64,000 nucleotides of DNA from Bacteroidales bacterium (GTDB lineage: Bacteria > Bacteroidota > Bacteroidia > Bacteroidales > Marinilabiliaceae), in assembly GCA_024401295.1 (NCBI GenBank), contig JAKSLG010000011.1, positions 1 to 64,000 on the forward strand, in the 5' to 3' direction. The notes under the pieces were generated by a model. It was not told the origin of the DNA. It searched no databases and was given only the letters and a program-made list of their open reading frames with translations. The stretch's first letter is position 1. Every line of letters begins with the position of its first letter. Of this stretch, positions 4,095-15,837 are shown one piece after another. The position numbers and the translations under genes were made by a program.

Positions 4095-4163
4095 GAAATC
4101 TTCAGTTCGCTGAAATCTCCTTTGTTGAATATTCTACTGTGGCAGATGCGCGTTTGCATCACC

Positions 4164-4286
4164 ATGTTTCGTCTATTATATGAAAATCCTTATGCACAAA
4201 AGCTATATCGAAGTTGTGGCTATGAAGTGCGAGGTTATGCAGAATGGCGGAAAGGCCGTTTTGATCTTATGGAGAAAAAACTCTAA
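4164..4286 (+). pseudogene. Relic of a GNAT acetyltransferase, C-terminal 40 residues
   Basis: This short frame translates to a segment with YENPYAQKLYRSCGYEV followed by a C-terminal MEKKL and a stop. That is the motif-B/C-terminal pattern of GNAT N-acetyltransferases (acetyl-CoA-binding Asn-Pro-x-Ala-xx-Leu-Tyr, then Gly-Phe/Tyr). The N-terminal two thirds, including the pyrophosphate-binding motif A, is missing: the same frame upstream is not GNAT-like and meets the stop codon of the lipoprotein gene at 4092. It is best read as a decayed or truncated gene; expression as a mini-protein cannot be excluded. Confidence 0.6.
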
Positions 4287-4335: not shown

Positions 4336-6072
4336 CTATTTTTCGAGGCTTTCAATCATGCGTCGGAAAAGATCGCACGATTGCATGAGTTCTTCGTATG
4401 TTCCCATTCCTGCTATGCCGTGGTTGTCGACGACCATTATTTTTGATGCCATTCTGATAGATGTGATGCGATGGCTGACGATGATAGCCGTTCGCCCGAT
4501 GGTGATCATCTTGAATTTGTCGATGAGTGATGCCTCTGTGAATGCGTCGAGTGCCGATGTAGGTTCGTCCATGACGATGATGTTGCTGTCGGCATAGAAA
4601 GAGCGTGCGAGCGCCACGCGTTGCCATTCTCCGCTACTGAGCATTTCGCTGTCAGGTGTGAGATTCCCGAGCATTGTGTCGTAGCTGTTTGGCATCGATT
4701 CGAATATCTTGTCAGCTCCGGCATCTCGTGCGGCAAGTTTGATTGCAGCGTCAGAAGCGTCTGGCTTATAGATATTTCCGAAGCGGATGTTGTTGAGCGC
4801 GGTGGCGTTGTAGAGCATGAAATCCTGGAAAATGGCCGAAATTTTTCCGTTGACCGCAACTTTGCCCTCCGTTGGTTCATAGAGTCCGCATATTAGCTTG
4901 ATAATCGTGCTTTTGCCACATCCGTTGCATCCGACGATGGCAAGACTTTCGCCTTTTTCAACCTTGAACGAAATGTCTTTGAGAACGATGCGTTCGGTGT
5001 TTGGATAGCTGAATGATACGTTTGTGAATTCGATGGCATTGTTGCTGGTCGAAGGTGCCGCCTTTGGCTGTTTCTTTTCGGCCGATGGCATGTCGATGAA
5101 TTCGAAGAAGTTCTTGAGGAAGAGATTGCTGTCGTAGAGCGATGCGAACCGTTGAAGGACGTCCTGTGCTGTGTTATAGCATCGTTGCAGAGCCATGAGA
5201 TACATGGCAATGAGACCGACGGACATGTGGCCAATGACGGCCTGGTAGATGACGATTCCAAAAACGGCAACGAAAGCCGCGGATGCCAATGTGCGGACAA
5301 TGCCTTCGCTGATGGCATCGCTGACAAGAAGTTTGACGAGTTTGTTCTGAAGTGTCTGGCGCGTTGAACAATAGAGATTGCGGAAATAGGCTGCGAGGTC
5401 GAACATGCGGACTTCTTTGGCAAACTCGCGTGCTGTCAGCACACGATTGTAATACTGTGCACGTCGTTCATCTATTGTCTGTTCGCGTTGCAGACGATAG
5501 AATTTTCGCGAAAAATATGTTCGAATGGCAACAATCGGAAGTCCAAGGCACAGAACAATCAGCGGAAGCGACCAGTGGATTGAAATCAGTATTGCGGCCA
5601 GCGAAATCAGTGTCAAGAGTTCTTGTATGAGTCCGATGATGTTGTAGAAGACGCCTTGCGGCTTGGATTGCGATTCGGCAACGGCTCTGAAAAAGACGTT
5701 GTGATAGTTGGCATCTTCAAAGAATCCGTAGTTTATTGATGTCGTCTTGCTGTGGATGATGTCTGCAATGAGCATCGAGACCTTGAAGCTGTGTTTTTGC
5801 TTGACGATGGTGTGTATGGACGAGAAAATCGTGTTTGCAACAAGGATTATACCCATCAGAATCAAGCCTTTGAGTGTCTCTTGAAGGTCGAATGCGTGTG
5901 TCGTAATCTGATCTGAAGCGATATCGATAATAATCTTAACTGCCCACAGTTGTGCAAGTGGAATCAAGCCGCATATCACCACAAGTGCTGCATTGGCCAA
6001 TGTCCACTTGATGCTGCTGCCCACGATGAGGCGCATGATGCGAATAAAATTATATGAGGTTAAGCTCTTCAT
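4336..6072 (-). CDS. ABC exporter, fused membrane and ATPase domains
   Basis: A 578-residue half-transporter with about six transmembrane helices in residues 1-310 and an ATPase domain in 345-575. Walker A is GCNGCGKST (381-389), the signature is LSSGEWQR (478-485), Walker B is IIVMDEPTSALD (498-509), and the H-loop is VSHRI. There is no C39 leader-peptidase domain, so leader removal must come from another protein. It overlaps the upstream peptidase-like gene by 4 bases and ends the tsaD/PqqD/HprK/S26 operon. In that setting a role in exporting a modified peptide is likely, but lipid or drug export cannot be excluded from sequence alone. Confidence 0.88.
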   Translation of the reverse strand: MKSLTSYNFIRIMRLIVGSSIKWTLANAALVVICGLIPLAQLWAVKIIIDIASDQITTHAFDLQETLKGLILMGIILVANTIFSSIHTIVKQKHSFKVSMLIADIIHSKTTSINYGFFEDANYHNVFFRAVAESQSKPQGVFYNIIGLIQELLTLISLAAILISIHWSLPLIVLCLGLPIVAIRTYFSRKFYRLQREQTIDERRAQYYNRVLTAREFAKEVRMFDLAAYFRNLYCSTRQTLQNKLVKLLVSDAISEGIVRTLASAAFVAVFGIVIYQAVIGHMSVGLIAMYLMALQRCYNTAQDVLQRFASLYDSNLFLKNFFEFIDMPSAEKKQPKAAPSTSNNAIEFTNVSFSYPNTERIVLKDISFKVEKGESLAIVGCNGCGKSTIIKLICGLYEPTEGKVAVNGKISAIFQDFMLYNATALNNIRFGNIYKPDASDAAIKLAARDAGADKIFESMPNSYDTMLGNLTPDSEMLSSGEWQRVALARSFYADSNIIVMDEPTSALDAFTEASLIDKFKMITIGRTAIIVSHRITSIRMASKIMVVDNHGIAGMGTYEELMQSCDLFRRMIESLEK

Positions 6073-6551
6073 CGCTTTTCATTTTTATGGAATAACGCAC
6101 CACGTATGCGCAATGCTGTGTTGGTAATCATGGCCAGAAGATGGTTGCACCAATGGCTCAATGGACTGAAACACAATATACTGCGGCCATATATCCTGGC
6201 GAATACGTTTGATGTGCTGCGCACGAATTTGCCATATCCAGCTTTAATGACAACGCCAACAACTTGTCCGTCTTCGACGAGTTGGTCGTTGTGGAGACAT
6301 GAGTCGCCGCGAGTGATGATTGTCTGTCCGTCTTTTCTGACAACACGATGCGCAATGAAAAAATCGGCTTCCGGCTTCTCGAAAATGACAATGTCACCGC
6401 GTTTTATCTCGCTCAATCTGCGTGGCTCGACAATGAGAATCATTTTTGGCCACAGCATCGGAAACATGCTCAATCCGCCTGCGCGCATTGTCACGCAATG
6501 ACCTTTGGCGAGGAGGTCGAGCAATACTTTCTTGATTGAGGCCTGTTGCAT
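6069..6551 (-). CDS. S24/S26-family signal-peptidase-like protein
   Basis: A 160-residue protein of the peptidase S24/S26 superfamily. The Ser motif is GGLSMFPML with Ser28. The region GDIVIFEKPEADFFIAHRVV matches the SipW/archaeal type, in which His (here His68) replaces the bacterial catalytic Lys. A later ITRGD motif completes the fold. No N-terminal membrane anchor precedes the active-site Ser, unlike classical signal peptidases; a hydrophobic stretch exists only near residues 120-145. The start is 6 bases after the HprK-like stop and the end overlaps the ABC exporter. The context suggests it may trim a leader peptide; this is inference. Confidence 0.8.
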   Translation of the reverse strand: MQQASIKKVLLDLLAKGHCVTMRAGGLSMFPMLWPKMILIVEPRRLSEIKRGDIVIFEKPEADFFIAHRVVRKDGQTIITRGDSCLHNDQLVEDGQVVGVVIKAGYGKFVRSTSNVFARIYGRSILCFSPLSHWCNHLLAMITNTALRIRGALFHKNEKR

Positions 6552-6557
6552 GATAAA

Positions 6558-7445
6558 TCAGAGATTTAGTTTCCTGACTTCGTCAACAATGTCTGTGTCG
6601 GGTTTGAAACCGAGTTCGAAAAGCCTGACATGCTGAACGCTCTCTGCAACCGACTTTATGTGTCGCGTTGAGTCCTCTTTCGTGAAAGGGTGGTATATCG
6701 TGTTGGCAGCCAGCTTGAGCACGGCTGTGGCACCGCTTATCGGACGAATGAAATTCGTCGGCGACTGGCTAATCAGGAATATGCCTCGAAGCGCAATTTT
6801 GCGTGGTTCCTGGTTGTAATATGACATCGGAATATTGTGCGCTTCAACCGTATTTTCGCCATTTGTTATGGCAATCATATCGTCGTTGACGATTGTTGCT
6901 CCTTTCTCCTTCCACAGCTTTGCCATCGTCGATTTGCCAGTGCCGGAAACGGCTGTGAACAGATAGCCCTTTCCGCCATCATCGACAACCGATGAGTGAA
7001 TCATAAATCCGTTACTCTTTGCTAACAGGTTAGAAATGAGAAGGTTGATTGTCGGAAAAATATACGGGTCAATCGTTGGCGATTGCTGCGGACGTCGGCA
7101 TATCTGAATCTTTCCGCAATTGCCTTTATAGCGCATTTTTACCCACGAATATTCAGAATCATGGCGATAGCTGTCAACGACAATATAGTTCTCGCCATTC
7201 TTCGTAACGCCAATCTCCCAGATGTTTTCTGAAAACTCCATATCGCGGCAATCGCCGACGATCCAGCTCTCTCTGTCGGCCTCGCTATGCGTGTCGCCAG
7301 TTGCATCACTAACGCTAATGCATATGTCAGCTTCATCGGCAGACGCAATCACGAAACCACGAAATCCGGCATCCGAAAAGTCGAGAGGCTCTTCTGCTGA
7401 CATGCGAATTGTGATGTTGGCAACTGATATGCAAATTGTCTTCAC
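6558..7445 (-). CDS. HprK-like P-loop kinase of the peptide-modification type
   Basis: A 295-residue protein with the P-loop AVSGTGKST (165-173) and the acidic motif IVNDD (185-189), as in the C-terminal catalytic domain of HPr kinase. The N-terminal 150 residues are a beta-rich domain opening with a strand of the type ISVANITIRM, seen in HprK-like proteins of lasso-peptide and exopolysaccharide clusters and not in true HPr kinase. No PTS gene is nearby. Members near lasso clusters can phosphorylate the peptide product, so this protein may modify a peptide here. It lies 18 bases after the PqqD-like gene in one operon. Confidence 0.8.
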   Translation of the reverse strand: MKTICISVANITIRMSAEEPLDFSDAGFRGFVIASADEADICISVSDATGDTHSEADRESWIVGDCRDMEFSENIWEIGVTKNGENYIVVDSYRHDSEYSWVKMRYKGNCGKIQICRRPQQSPTIDPYIFPTINLLISNLLAKSNGFMIHSSVVDDGGKGYLFTAVSGTGKSTMAKLWKEKGATIVNDDMIAITNGENTVEAHNIPMSYYNQEPRKIALRGIFLISQSPTNFIRPISGATAVLKLAANTIYHPFTKEDSTRHIKSVAESVQHVRLFELGFKPDTDIVDEVRKLNL

Positions 7446-7463
7446 GAGTGGAGTTCTTTGAGT

Positions 7464-7742
7464 TTATTCTTTTTCAGACAAATAGCCTAGTTCAATCATT
7501 CTGCTTGTGAATTTTTGGAAATCAGCTTCTATAAGCGATGATTCGGCATCGAAAGTCTTGACCATTTCTTCGATAATATCTTTAGAATCAACGCCTTTTG
7601 TGATGCGTTCAAGAATGAATTCACCGGTTTTGTTGATGGCAAGCATATTGCCGTTTTCCTTGACATCTTTGCCAACGGGAACGATGACCATTTCGCCAAG
7701 AACGTCTGTCGTTGTGAAATTATCGCTTGCTATGTATTTCAT
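7464..7742 (-). CDS. PqqD-family protein (RiPP recognition element-like)
   Basis: A 92-residue protein with the PqqD pattern: N-terminal strands, LGEMVIVPVGKDVKENGNMLAINKTGEFILERI, then a winged-helix part ending in MIELGYLSEKE. PqqD domains bind leader peptides and present them to modifying enzymes. The ATG at 7742 is used; an earlier in-frame start would overlap tsaD deeply and add non-homologous residues. It begins 2 bases after the tsaD stop, so it depends on the tsaD transcript. It is the first of four genes that look like a peptide modification and export set, although no precursor gene is visible. Confidence 0.82.
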   Translation of the reverse strand: MKYIASDNFTTTDVLGEMVIVPVGKDVKENGNMLAINKTGEFILERITKGVDSKDIIEEMVKTFDAESSLIEADFQKFTSRMIELGYLSEKE

Positions 7743-7744
7743 TG

Positions 7745-8758
7745 TCAGATGATTGTGCGTGAGAAAGGTGCAACTGTCTGGTCGCAGAACATTCCGCGCT
7801 GGAATTTGCGATATCCTGCTGATGCAACCATAGCCGCATTGTCGGTTGTAAACGCAAATTTTGGCACGAAGACATTCCATCCCCGATTGGTGTGGAGATC
7901 CTCAAAGGCCTTGCGCAAACCAGAGTTCGCCGAGACGCCGCCAGCTAGTGCAATCTCCGTGATTTTGAGGTCTTTGGCAGCCTTGATGAGTTTCTTCATC
8001 AGGATGTCAATGACAGTTTTCTGGAGCGATGCACAGAGGTCAGCTTTGTTTTTCTCGATGAAATCGGCATCCTCTTTGAGTCTGTCGCGAAGTGTGTAGA
8101 GAAACGAAGTCTTGAGTCCGCTGAAACTATAGTCGTAGTCCTTGATATTTGGCTTTGCAAATTCAAAAGCATCGGCATTGCCTTGCTGTGCAAGTTTGTC
8201 GATGAGCGGTCCACCAGGATAGCCAAGTCCCATGACTTTTGCACATTTGTCGAATGCTTCGCCGGCTGCATCATCAATTGTCTGGCCAATGATTTTCATG
8301 TCCATATAGTCGTTGACGAGCAAAATCTGGCTGTTACCACCCGAAACGAGCAGGCACAGAAATGGAAATTTTGGCAGTTCCCGGCCTTCTTCGATGATGA
8401 AATGTGCCGATACGTGTGCCTGCAAGTGATTGACGTCAATCATTGGCAGACCTTGTGCAAGCGCAAATCCTTTGGCAAATGACGTGCCGACGAGCAATGA
8501 ACCGAGCAATCCCGGGCCACGTGTGAATGCAATTGCATCGAGGTCGCCGGGTTTGATGCCGGCATCTGCAATGGCCTTATCGACCACTGGAATTATGTTT
8601 TGCTGGTGAGCGCGTGATGCCAGTTCTGGTACAACGCCACCATAGCGCAAATGCACAGCCTGACTCGCTGTAACGTTCGACAGCACACGGCCATCATCGA
8701 GCACCGCTGCCGACGTATCGTCGCACGATGACTCTATGCCAAGAATTTTTATTCCCAT
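7745..8758 (-). CDS. tsaD: tRNA N6-threonylcarbamoyladenosine synthase subunit TsaD
   Basis: Transfers the threonylcarbamoyl group to A37 of tRNAs that read ANN codons, together with TsaB and TsaE. The protein has 337 residues, the usual length. The N-terminus is ILGIESSCDDTS; the metal-binding HxxxH is His111 and His115 within NHLQAHVSAH; and the late Asp motif is TTDNAA near 306. It is the first gene of a five-gene minus-strand run that continues into PqqD-like, HprK-like, S26-like and ABC genes with gaps of 2 to 18 bases or overlaps. Confidence 0.97.
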   Translation of the reverse strand: MGIKILGIESSCDDTSAAVLDDGRVLSNVTASQAVHLRYGGVVPELASRAHQQNIIPVVDKAIADAGIKPGDLDAIAFTRGPGLLGSLLVGTSFAKGFALAQGLPMIDVNHLQAHVSAHFIIEEGRELPKFPFLCLLVSGGNSQILLVNDYMDMKIIGQTIDDAAGEAFDKCAKVMGLGYPGGPLIDKLAQQGNADAFEFAKPNIKDYDYSFSGLKTSFLYTLRDRLKEDADFIEKNKADLCASLQKTVIDILMKKLIKAAKDLKITEIALAGGVSANSGLRKAFEDLHTNRGWNVFVPKFAFTTDNAAMVASAGYRKFQRGMFCDQTVAPFSRTII

Positions 8759-14382: not shown

Positions 14383-15705
14383 TTAATAATAGTGCGTTGT
14401 TGAGACGATTTTCCAATGGCCGTCTTCCCACATGAATTCTTGTGCGGTGCGCACGTTGTCGTTGCCGTCATAGGCATATTCATACTTGCCTTTGTAGAAT
14501 TCGTCCCACTGCTTTGTCACCTTGTTCCACGAGAATGTACTTTCACGAATTTTATTGTGATTGTCGTCATATTCGTAAGTCATCTTTGAGTTCTTCTGCC
14601 AATCGCGTGTGACTGGGTTCCACTTGCATTTTATGTCGAGAATCATGTTGCCCATTGCATCGTAGTCGAACTCGCTGTTGACCTGACCGCGCCAATCGTT
14701 GGTGTAGTTGTCCCACTTCAGTGAAACGTCTTTTAGAATGTCTCCATAGTCGTTGAAAGACTGAGAGATACGCGATATGCCGATCCACTCATCGCCACCA
14801 TTCCACTGCTGTTCTTCTTCGAAGATCTTGTTGTCCTGGCTGTCATATTCAAGCTTCGAGCGACCTTGCGTTGAGATTGTCCATCTGCCGTTTTTGAATC
14901 GCTCTGTTTTGCTTAGAATCTCGTTGTTGTGGCGATCGTTGACAACAGTGTTTCTTTCTGAATCGACAAAACTGCCTGTGCTTTCGTCATATTTTGAAAT
15001 CTGCTTTACAACGGAATTGTCGCCATTGGACTGTGCAATATATGTTATTGCAGTCTGCTCTACTGGACGCCATTGGTTTCCGCTCCACTTTTCGGACGTG
15101 ATGCGACTGCGTTTTTTCTTGTCGTTATATTCGTACAGGCTGCGGGTGTCGTTTCCCCATTCGCTGCCATTGAATTTCTGCTCTGTTCTGGATTTCTCCA
15201 ATCCGTTTTCGTTGTATTCAATGACTGTGCGATGGTCTTCGGCCCAGTCGTTGTCGTCCTCGTCCCAATCCATCTGTGACATGGATGAAATGAGGCCTAA
15301 TCCGTTGTATTCCAATTTGGTACATTCTGTGCCGATCCATGCATTTCGCTCGCGATTCCACTTTCTTACATCGTGAAGCGTGCGTCGGCCTTTGCTGTCG
15401 AAGACATTGCATTCTCGCGACATTTCAACCCATGCGTTTTTCTCCCAGTACGAGACTTTTTTCGATGTGATTCTTCCGTCATTGTCATAAACAGCCTCTT
15501 CGCGGTATGTTCCGCTCCAAGTCTGCTCTTTGCGGTTGAATGTATAGTGCATCACAGATGTCTGATATCCATTTGAATCATACGTAAAATAAGAGCGCAA
15601 CACCATCTGTCCCTCGCGATCGATCTTGATGATGCTGTCCGTTTGATGTTGAGCAATTGCCGAAATCGACAACATTGCAAATATTAATAATCCTATATAT
15701 TTCAT
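14383..15705 (-). CDS. Exported YD-type repeat protein (DUF3836-like)
   Basis: A 440-residue secreted protein; residues 1-18 are a signal peptide ending in AIAQ. The rest is about ten imperfect repeats of roughly 40 residues, each with a Tyr-Asp/Asn-x-x-Gly/Asn turn (YDSNGY, YDNDGR, YNENGL, YDAMGN, YDDNHN) followed by a strand with a conserved Trp (W.....W). This resembles RHS/YD shells and the DUF3836 group common in Bacteroides and Prevotella. It lacks a toxin domain, so it is not a full Rhs protein. Its start at 15705 is preferred to a TTG two codons earlier. Confidence 0.72.
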   Translation of the reverse strand: MKYIGLLIFAMLSISAIAQHQTDSIIKIDREGQMVLRSYFTYDSNGYQTSVMHYTFNRKEQTWSGTYREEAVYDNDGRITSKKVSYWEKNAWVEMSRECNVFDSKGRRTLHDVRKWNRERNAWIGTECTKLEYNGLGLISSMSQMDWDEDDNDWAEDHRTVIEYNENGLEKSRTEQKFNGSEWGNDTRSLYEYNDKKKRSRITSEKWSGNQWRPVEQTAITYIAQSNGDNSVVKQISKYDESTGSFVDSERNTVVNDRHNNEILSKTERFKNGRWTISTQGRSKLEYDSQDNKIFEEEQQWNGGDEWIGISRISQSFNDYGDILKDVSLKWDNYTNDWRGQVNSEFDYDAMGNMILDIKCKWNPVTRDWQKNSKMTYEYDDNHNKIRESTFSWNKVTKQWDEFYKGKYEYAYDGNDNVRTAQEFMWEDGHWKIVSTTHYY

Positions 15706-15837
15706 GCACAAGGTGTTAATAAGACTTTCGCTCCCTTATACGACGATGGCTGTCGTTTGTTACCTCATTTTTGCTTTTTTTTATAACATGAGTGGTGTTT
15801 TCTTGGGTTGCTATGTGTAAATGCCCTTTGAAAAGCG

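Follow-up and report, generated by a model that had tools for sequence, protein, structure and literature searches.

The window analysed here is a stretch of 64,000 nucleotides from a bacterium of the family Marinilabiliaceae in the Bacteroidales (contig JAKSLG010000011.1, positions 1 to 64,000). It carries four packed minus-strand genes for a PqqD-like protein, an HprK-like kinase, an S26 peptidase and an ABC exporter. We consider it very probable that, by its predicted activities, this operon encodes a Bacteroidota counterpart of the machinery for linear polyphosphorylated peptides (LPP), making exported linear phosphopeptides. LPP were described in May 2026 in Bacillota, with the lpp cluster of Paenibacillus alginolyticus (PMC13381572). 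In the proposed scheme, the PqqD-like protein, a putative recognition element of ribosomally synthesized and post-translationally modified peptides (RRE), would bind the precursor leader via Y-x2-P-x-[ILV]. The HprK-like kinase would phosphorylate a Ser or Thr where the core begins, 20 residues past the leader Tyr. The S26 peptidase would take off the leader, and the ABC protein would export this linear phosphopeptide, probably into the periplasm. Most genomes of the family encode, away from the operon, a nucleotidyltransferase (NTase) of the NTP_transf_5 family that may decorate the phosphate. The genes at the locus are as follows.

7464..7742, minus strand: PqqD-like RRE of the LppB/lasso-B1 type, 92 aa, predicted YxxP leader binder (Pfam PqqD, E=1e-10).
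6558..7445, minus strand: HprK-like kinase, 295 aa, GTG start, predicted to phosphorylate Ser/Thr 20 residues past the leader Tyr (Hpr_kinase_C, E=2e-4, below the Pfam cut-off).
6069..6551, minus strand: S26 peptidase (archaeal/SipW/SEC11-type), 160 aa, predicted leader peptidase (Peptidase_S26, 6e-6, above cut-off).
4336..6072, minus strand: MsbA-like ABC exporter of 578 aa that lacks a C39 protease domain (ABC_tran 2e-26, ABC_membrane 2e-13).
7745..8758, minus strand: tsaD, housekeeping t6A gene directly upstream of pqqD (2-base gap to pqqD).

The four genes had been singled out by a sequence-only reading of the window. Their coordinates and spacing (gaps of 18 bases and 6 bases, one 4-base overlap) were all reproduced, Pfam and NCBIfam matches bore out the domain calls, and no C39 domain was present among the Pfam matches of the exporter, as that reading had stated. 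It had not recorded the 2 bases that separate the end of tsaD from pqqD; tsaD is a frequent upstream neighbour in the family and lies outside the function of the system. The window belongs to contig C3 of a 2.3 Mb genome, 75% complete, with a single kinase match.

The candidate precursors are short peptides with a YxxPx[ILV]x5D leader (consensus KKxYxxPxxExxxxDxxISLxMxS). In the first set of 37 core loci, 13 have a peptide open reading frame (ORF) in the interval that separates pqqD from hprK; among the 80 named loci (80 of 81 enter all such counts), hprK has one immediately upstream in 35. Further members were found by profiles away from the core locus. The window's genome encodes two of these in trans, G000:C37:37850-38065(+) and G000:C23:7766-7963(-), with E-values of 1.8e-5 and 0.0084 against a profile built without them, and of 1e-12 and 8e-13 against one holding them as rows. 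Across its genus, a wider profile matched a peptide in 9/15 genomes, and a genus profile weakly added G001, G002 and G009. The peptides behave as genes, since in each of eight chosen pairs both leader and core had a dN lower than dS. Comparison with family libraries left five members without an NCBIfam family and four without a Pfam family beyond chance-level matches.

Peptide and kinase also occur together. Among 197 genomes sampled from the order, the kinase at E<1e-33, a threshold chosen post hoc from a gap among the listed matches, was present in 19, the peptide in 19 and both in 16 (Fisher 7e-18; 5e-14 with family f1 and G048 left out). With the original search threshold of 1e-10, the same genomes gave 39 with the kinase, 19 with the peptide and 17 with both. 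A shared short peptide, of the sort the sequence-only reading had advised looking for among genes co-occurring with the operon, is present in 16 of the 19 genomes with a strong kinase match.

The kinase gene is conserved across the family. It is single-copy in 36/37 genomes of the Marinilabiliaceae (missing in G027, which is 72% complete), while 5/24 genomes from other families of the order had it at E<=1e-3. Metagenome-assembled genomes from gut and rumen appear to be nearest to the window within the family, in the GTDB sense. With the window proteins as tblastn queries, matches near the kinase were found in the loci of 36 relatives for tsaD (27), PqqD (17), S26 (26) and ABC (18); clustering instead placed PqqD in 27/37 loci. 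These genes recur at relatives' loci, so their grouping is not due to chance, and the order tsaD-pqqD-hprK-S26-(ABC), which includes the four-gene order foreseen as a check, does recur in the family. By these counts, the complete four-gene run is common but not universal. In the 80 named loci, pqqD was upstream in 74 and tsaD in 43, S26 lay within 700 bases in 48, an ABC gene within 6 kb downstream in 34, and PqqD, S26 and ABC stood together in 30. The Flavobacteriales loci have the order pqqD-hprK-NTP_transf_5, with S26 and peptides close by on the opposite strand. A Lachnospiraceae locus, L201:179-4552 (+), reads kinase-RRE-S26-ABC-NTase (NTP_transf_5) and shows no precursor at the edge of its contig; this order equals that in the lppAKBSDN construct name (PMC13381572). 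Likely further variants are two more distant HprK-like loci, L069:9238-11022 (-) and L067:6955-10383 (+), where PqqD and S26 were matched as well; L069 has a YxxP peptide upstream and NTP_transf_5 nearby. A first single-protein scan of genome contigs gave no match. A mobile or phage origin was rejected, only weak partial matches to 2 phage and 4 plasmid-collection records having been obtained.

We then examined each component. A profile of the PqqD family (46 rows, from 56 available proteins) matched TbiB1, 9x90 (PbaB1), 9x8z (LppB) and TfuB1 in the PDB, while the single window protein gave no phmmer match there up to E=1. Residues N37, D74 and F78 are kept in 46, 44 and 44 of the 46 rows; mapped by hand on the alignment, they correspond with the same spacing to LppB N33/D70/F74, which contact the leader in LPP (PMC13381572). 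The RRE thus retains the leader-binding residues of LppB, and leader binding is predicted. A tree of the RRE (27 rows, 97 columns) was barely resolved with respect to an LPP clade, with one Bacillota row on a long branch.

The catalytic residues of the kinase are intact (63 of 76 available sequences aligned; motif compared with BsfK), and its predicted model has a PEPCK/HprK-type fold. Lack of kinase geometry, which the sequence-only reading had named as a point that could overturn its proposal, was thus not seen in the model. No HPr kinase structure was among the 50 matches listed in a fold search with this model. The P-loop and DD motif are shared with HPr kinase/phosphorylase (PDB 1jb1, 2qmh), of which only about 58 residues align by sequence, and we saw no sign of an HPr-regulating role.

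In the S26 peptidase, S28, H68, D83 and D89 are invariant in all 20 aligned rows, in keeping with S29/H68/D93 of the LPP signal peptidase (PMC13381572). Its best PDB matches were SEC11C/A. The best NCBIfam models of the window proteins were archaeal-type signal peptidase I for S26 (TIGR02228, 7e-12) and MsbA for the exporter (TIGR02203), each below its cut-off. In L170, L192 and L198, all Flavobacteriales, the peptide and S26 genes overlap or directly adjoin each other, which suggests translational coupling of the two.

The predicted phosphosite was located by aligning the peptides on the anchor YxxPx7D. From 105 collected peptides, 73 were kept at <70% identity, and 72 of these have Ser or Thr at Y+20 (51 S, 21 T, 1 E, the exception being L183:9090). 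The next best position reaches 59% Ser/Thr and the region beyond averages 17%. Y+5 is hydrophobic in 73/73, the anchor itself having demanded only Y, P/T/A and D. The core is proline-rich and nearly cysteine-free, with Cys from Y+20 onward in 1/73. In the scripted count, a second set of 28 peptides, excluding one training peptide and one match without the anchor, had Ser/Thr at Y+20 in 27; L237, the one miss, had been anchored wrongly by the script and has Ser by eye. The regions of this set were picked with a profile including Y+20, and the scan profile stops at Y+17. In L250, which did not match the leader-only profile, a variant that carries Phe in place of the Tyr, and Ser at +20, was recognised by eye.

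This residue might instead be the P1 position of S26 cleavage, with the peptide mainly trimmed and exported and the kinase acting elsewhere. Signal peptidases require small residues at the cleavage site, and fusions of S26 to the exporter in L065, L166, L186 and L264 link the peptidase to export. However, Y+20 is never Ala or Gly among the 73 peptides, a choice typical of a kinase rather than of a signal peptidase. In addition, kinase sites lie at a near-equal distance from the leader Tyr in two known precursors: 19 residues in the lasso precursor BsfA and 18 in LppA, to the phosphorylated S3 (PMC13381572). We therefore regard the cleavage-site alternative as unlikely, and phosphorylation at Y+20 as the predicted outcome.

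The putative decorating enzyme follows the kinase across genomes. Among 61 genomes, NTP_transf_5 and kinase were both present in 39, the kinase only in 2, the NTase only in 3 and neither in 17. The NTase was found in 35/37 family genomes, unlinked to the operon, and is linked to it in the Flavobacteriales and Lachnospiraceae loci. In another alternative, the operon would belong to a polysaccharide system, as the sequence-only reading had considered, or serve in kinase-based regulation. By eye, acyltransferase- or glycosyltransferase-like genes neighbour the NTP_transf_5 gene of the window's genome and 3/15 main-subfamily copies, and a glycosyltransferase-like family, T4, lies near 4/20 trans peptide loci; LPP clusters in Bacilli, too, often lie in capsule loci (PMC13381572). 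Against this, the peptide is linked to and co-occurs with the kinase, and no glycosyltransferase was present among the recurrent core-locus neighbours inspected. Consistent glycosyltransferase linkage without a shared peptide, which that reading had put forward as grounds for refutation, was accordingly not what these loci showed, and we judge a polysaccharide or regulatory role very unlikely.

Many of the trans-encoded peptides have a recurrent kind of gene partner. Of 55 peptide matches away from the core in the family, 20 were taken first. A same-strand neighbour of at least 500 aa accompanies 27 of 32 peptides that lie outside the core locus, and a type A sorting domain of the type IX secretion system (T9SS) was found in 23/26 such neighbour tails versus 2/33 other neighbours (Fisher 5e-11). 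In this test, L102 was dropped since it is cut by the region end (its full tail was read by eye); the controls are the other 34 neighbours minus one duplicate, and the two sets differ in length. A second set of 20 peptides had a sorting-domain-like upstream tail in 8 and not in 12 (by eye), several of the 12 being at contig ends. The window's genome has 19 T9SS type A-tailed proteins, and nine relatives have 20-112. Both of its peptides lie just upstream of a T9SS-tailed gene, of 994 aa and of ~3,280 aa (the latter tail by eye). In L104-L117, the peptide lies 16-49 bases after the cargo gene in 13/14 loci, and 334 bases after it in L117. Three trans peptides, L259-L261, have an NPFGGxxPxY tail of the core-site class and no T9SS-tailed upstream neighbour. 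Since the T9SS translocon model SprA was matched in 57/61 genomes, co-occurrence with T9SS is non-discriminating and the link rests on gene adjacency. A gene family, T2, is located upstream of the cargo gene in 7/20 trans loci (L107-L111, L116, L117); its one scanned member, L110, is a methyltransferase.

The cargo pairing is the best lead to the role of the phosphopeptides. As a tentative possibility, the matured phosphopeptides, perhaps phosphoglycopeptides, might act as specific partners of, or tags on, T9SS surface proteins. Certain cargo genes would then have a peptide gene of their own alongside, a single core machine would mature all peptides of the cell, and peptide and cargo would meet in the periplasm or at the surface. 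If true, this would be the first biological role for LPP-type peptides and a so far unknown step in T9SS.

Two features of the window stand apart from the system. A short ORF at 4122-4286 (+) resembles the end of a GNAT acetyltransferase, converges with the ABC gene and is probably a remnant. At 14383-15711 (-), a 442-aa secreted-looking protein contains many W- and Y-rich repeats (both by eye).

Several observations weigh against the LPP-like interpretation. Profile and motif scans of the six-frame translated window found no precursor inside it, and G006, G012 and G014 (3/15 genus genomes) have no peptide even with the genus profile at E<=1. A strong kinase is present without a detected peptide in G073, G086 and G143, and a peptide without a kinase at E<=1e-10 in G154 and G187. 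Within the kinase neighbourhood, the S26 match is missing in 10/36 and the ABC match in 18/36 relatives' loci. The NTase of the window's genome belongs to another subfamily and lies in a polysaccharide-looking locus (by eye). The LPP leader consensus YxxPxVLxHQxIxFETxxS is not reproduced, its remainder VLxHQxIxFETxxS being unshared, and Ser/Thr stands at Y+20 here versus Ser at Y+18 in LPP, 2 residues further. Finally, LppK left an S3T variant unphosphorylated (PMC13381572), yet 21/73 peptides here have Thr.

Among known systems, phosphorylated lasso peptides (paeninodin, Bsf and pseudomycoidin; PMC10368454, PMC8498205) share the YxxP leader, a PqqD-like B1, an HprK-like kinase and an NTase with the operon. 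A lasso cluster, intact or decayed, would account for this lasso-associated set with its YxxPx[L] leader and B1-type RRE, and for the lasso B1 proteins among the best PDB profile matches. Nevertheless, the B2 protease PF13471 was found over cut-off in 0/37 family genomes (one sub-cut-off match, G014), in line with its lack in the sequence-only reading, and S26 takes its place. A lasso cluster was rejected on this count, and we consider it extremely unlikely. Elsewhere, at L070 and G043:C15:51432-51704, a lasso B2 protease, HprK-like kinase, PqqD and NTP_transf_5 lie close together in what is probably a Bacteroidales lasso cluster.

The LPP system is the closest counterpart. There, LppK phosphorylates S3 and LppS cleaves together with LppB (PMC13381572). 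Common to both are an RRE, an HprK-like kinase, an archaeal-type signal peptidase and an MsbA-like exporter, along with a linear precursor, a YxxPx[V] leader with a conserved Ser after it, and the same RRE contacts and catalytic residues. An NTP transferase, part of the cluster in LPP, is encoded apart from the operon in most genomes of the family here. The precursors of the window's genome lie outside the cluster. The system here is core to a Bacteroidota family. Many relatives have their precursor genes between pqqD and hprK, and others, the window's genome among them, have them in trans, often beside T9SS cargo genes; the NTase is unlinked in the family, and some relatives have S26-ABC fusions. 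We infer a new variant of the LPP kind, because it appears to work like LPP and has most of its features, while leader consensus, distribution and linkage differ. The proposal of the sequence-only reading, phosphorylation, trimming and export of a linear peptide, is well supported; the novelty of the kind did not stand, since LPP have been reported (PMC13381572). In that paper, LPP are termed restricted to Bacillota and patchy in Bacilli, its main text holds no word beginning with "Bacteroid", and we found no report of this system in Bacteroidota in the open-access literature. The counterpart here is single-copy and conserved across a Bacteroidota family as a whole. It comes with a defined family of substrates, a predicted site of phosphorylation and T9SS-sorted surface proteins as recurrent gene partners, and isolates such as those of Marinilabilia or Carboxylicivirga therefore offer a direct test of what the peptides do.

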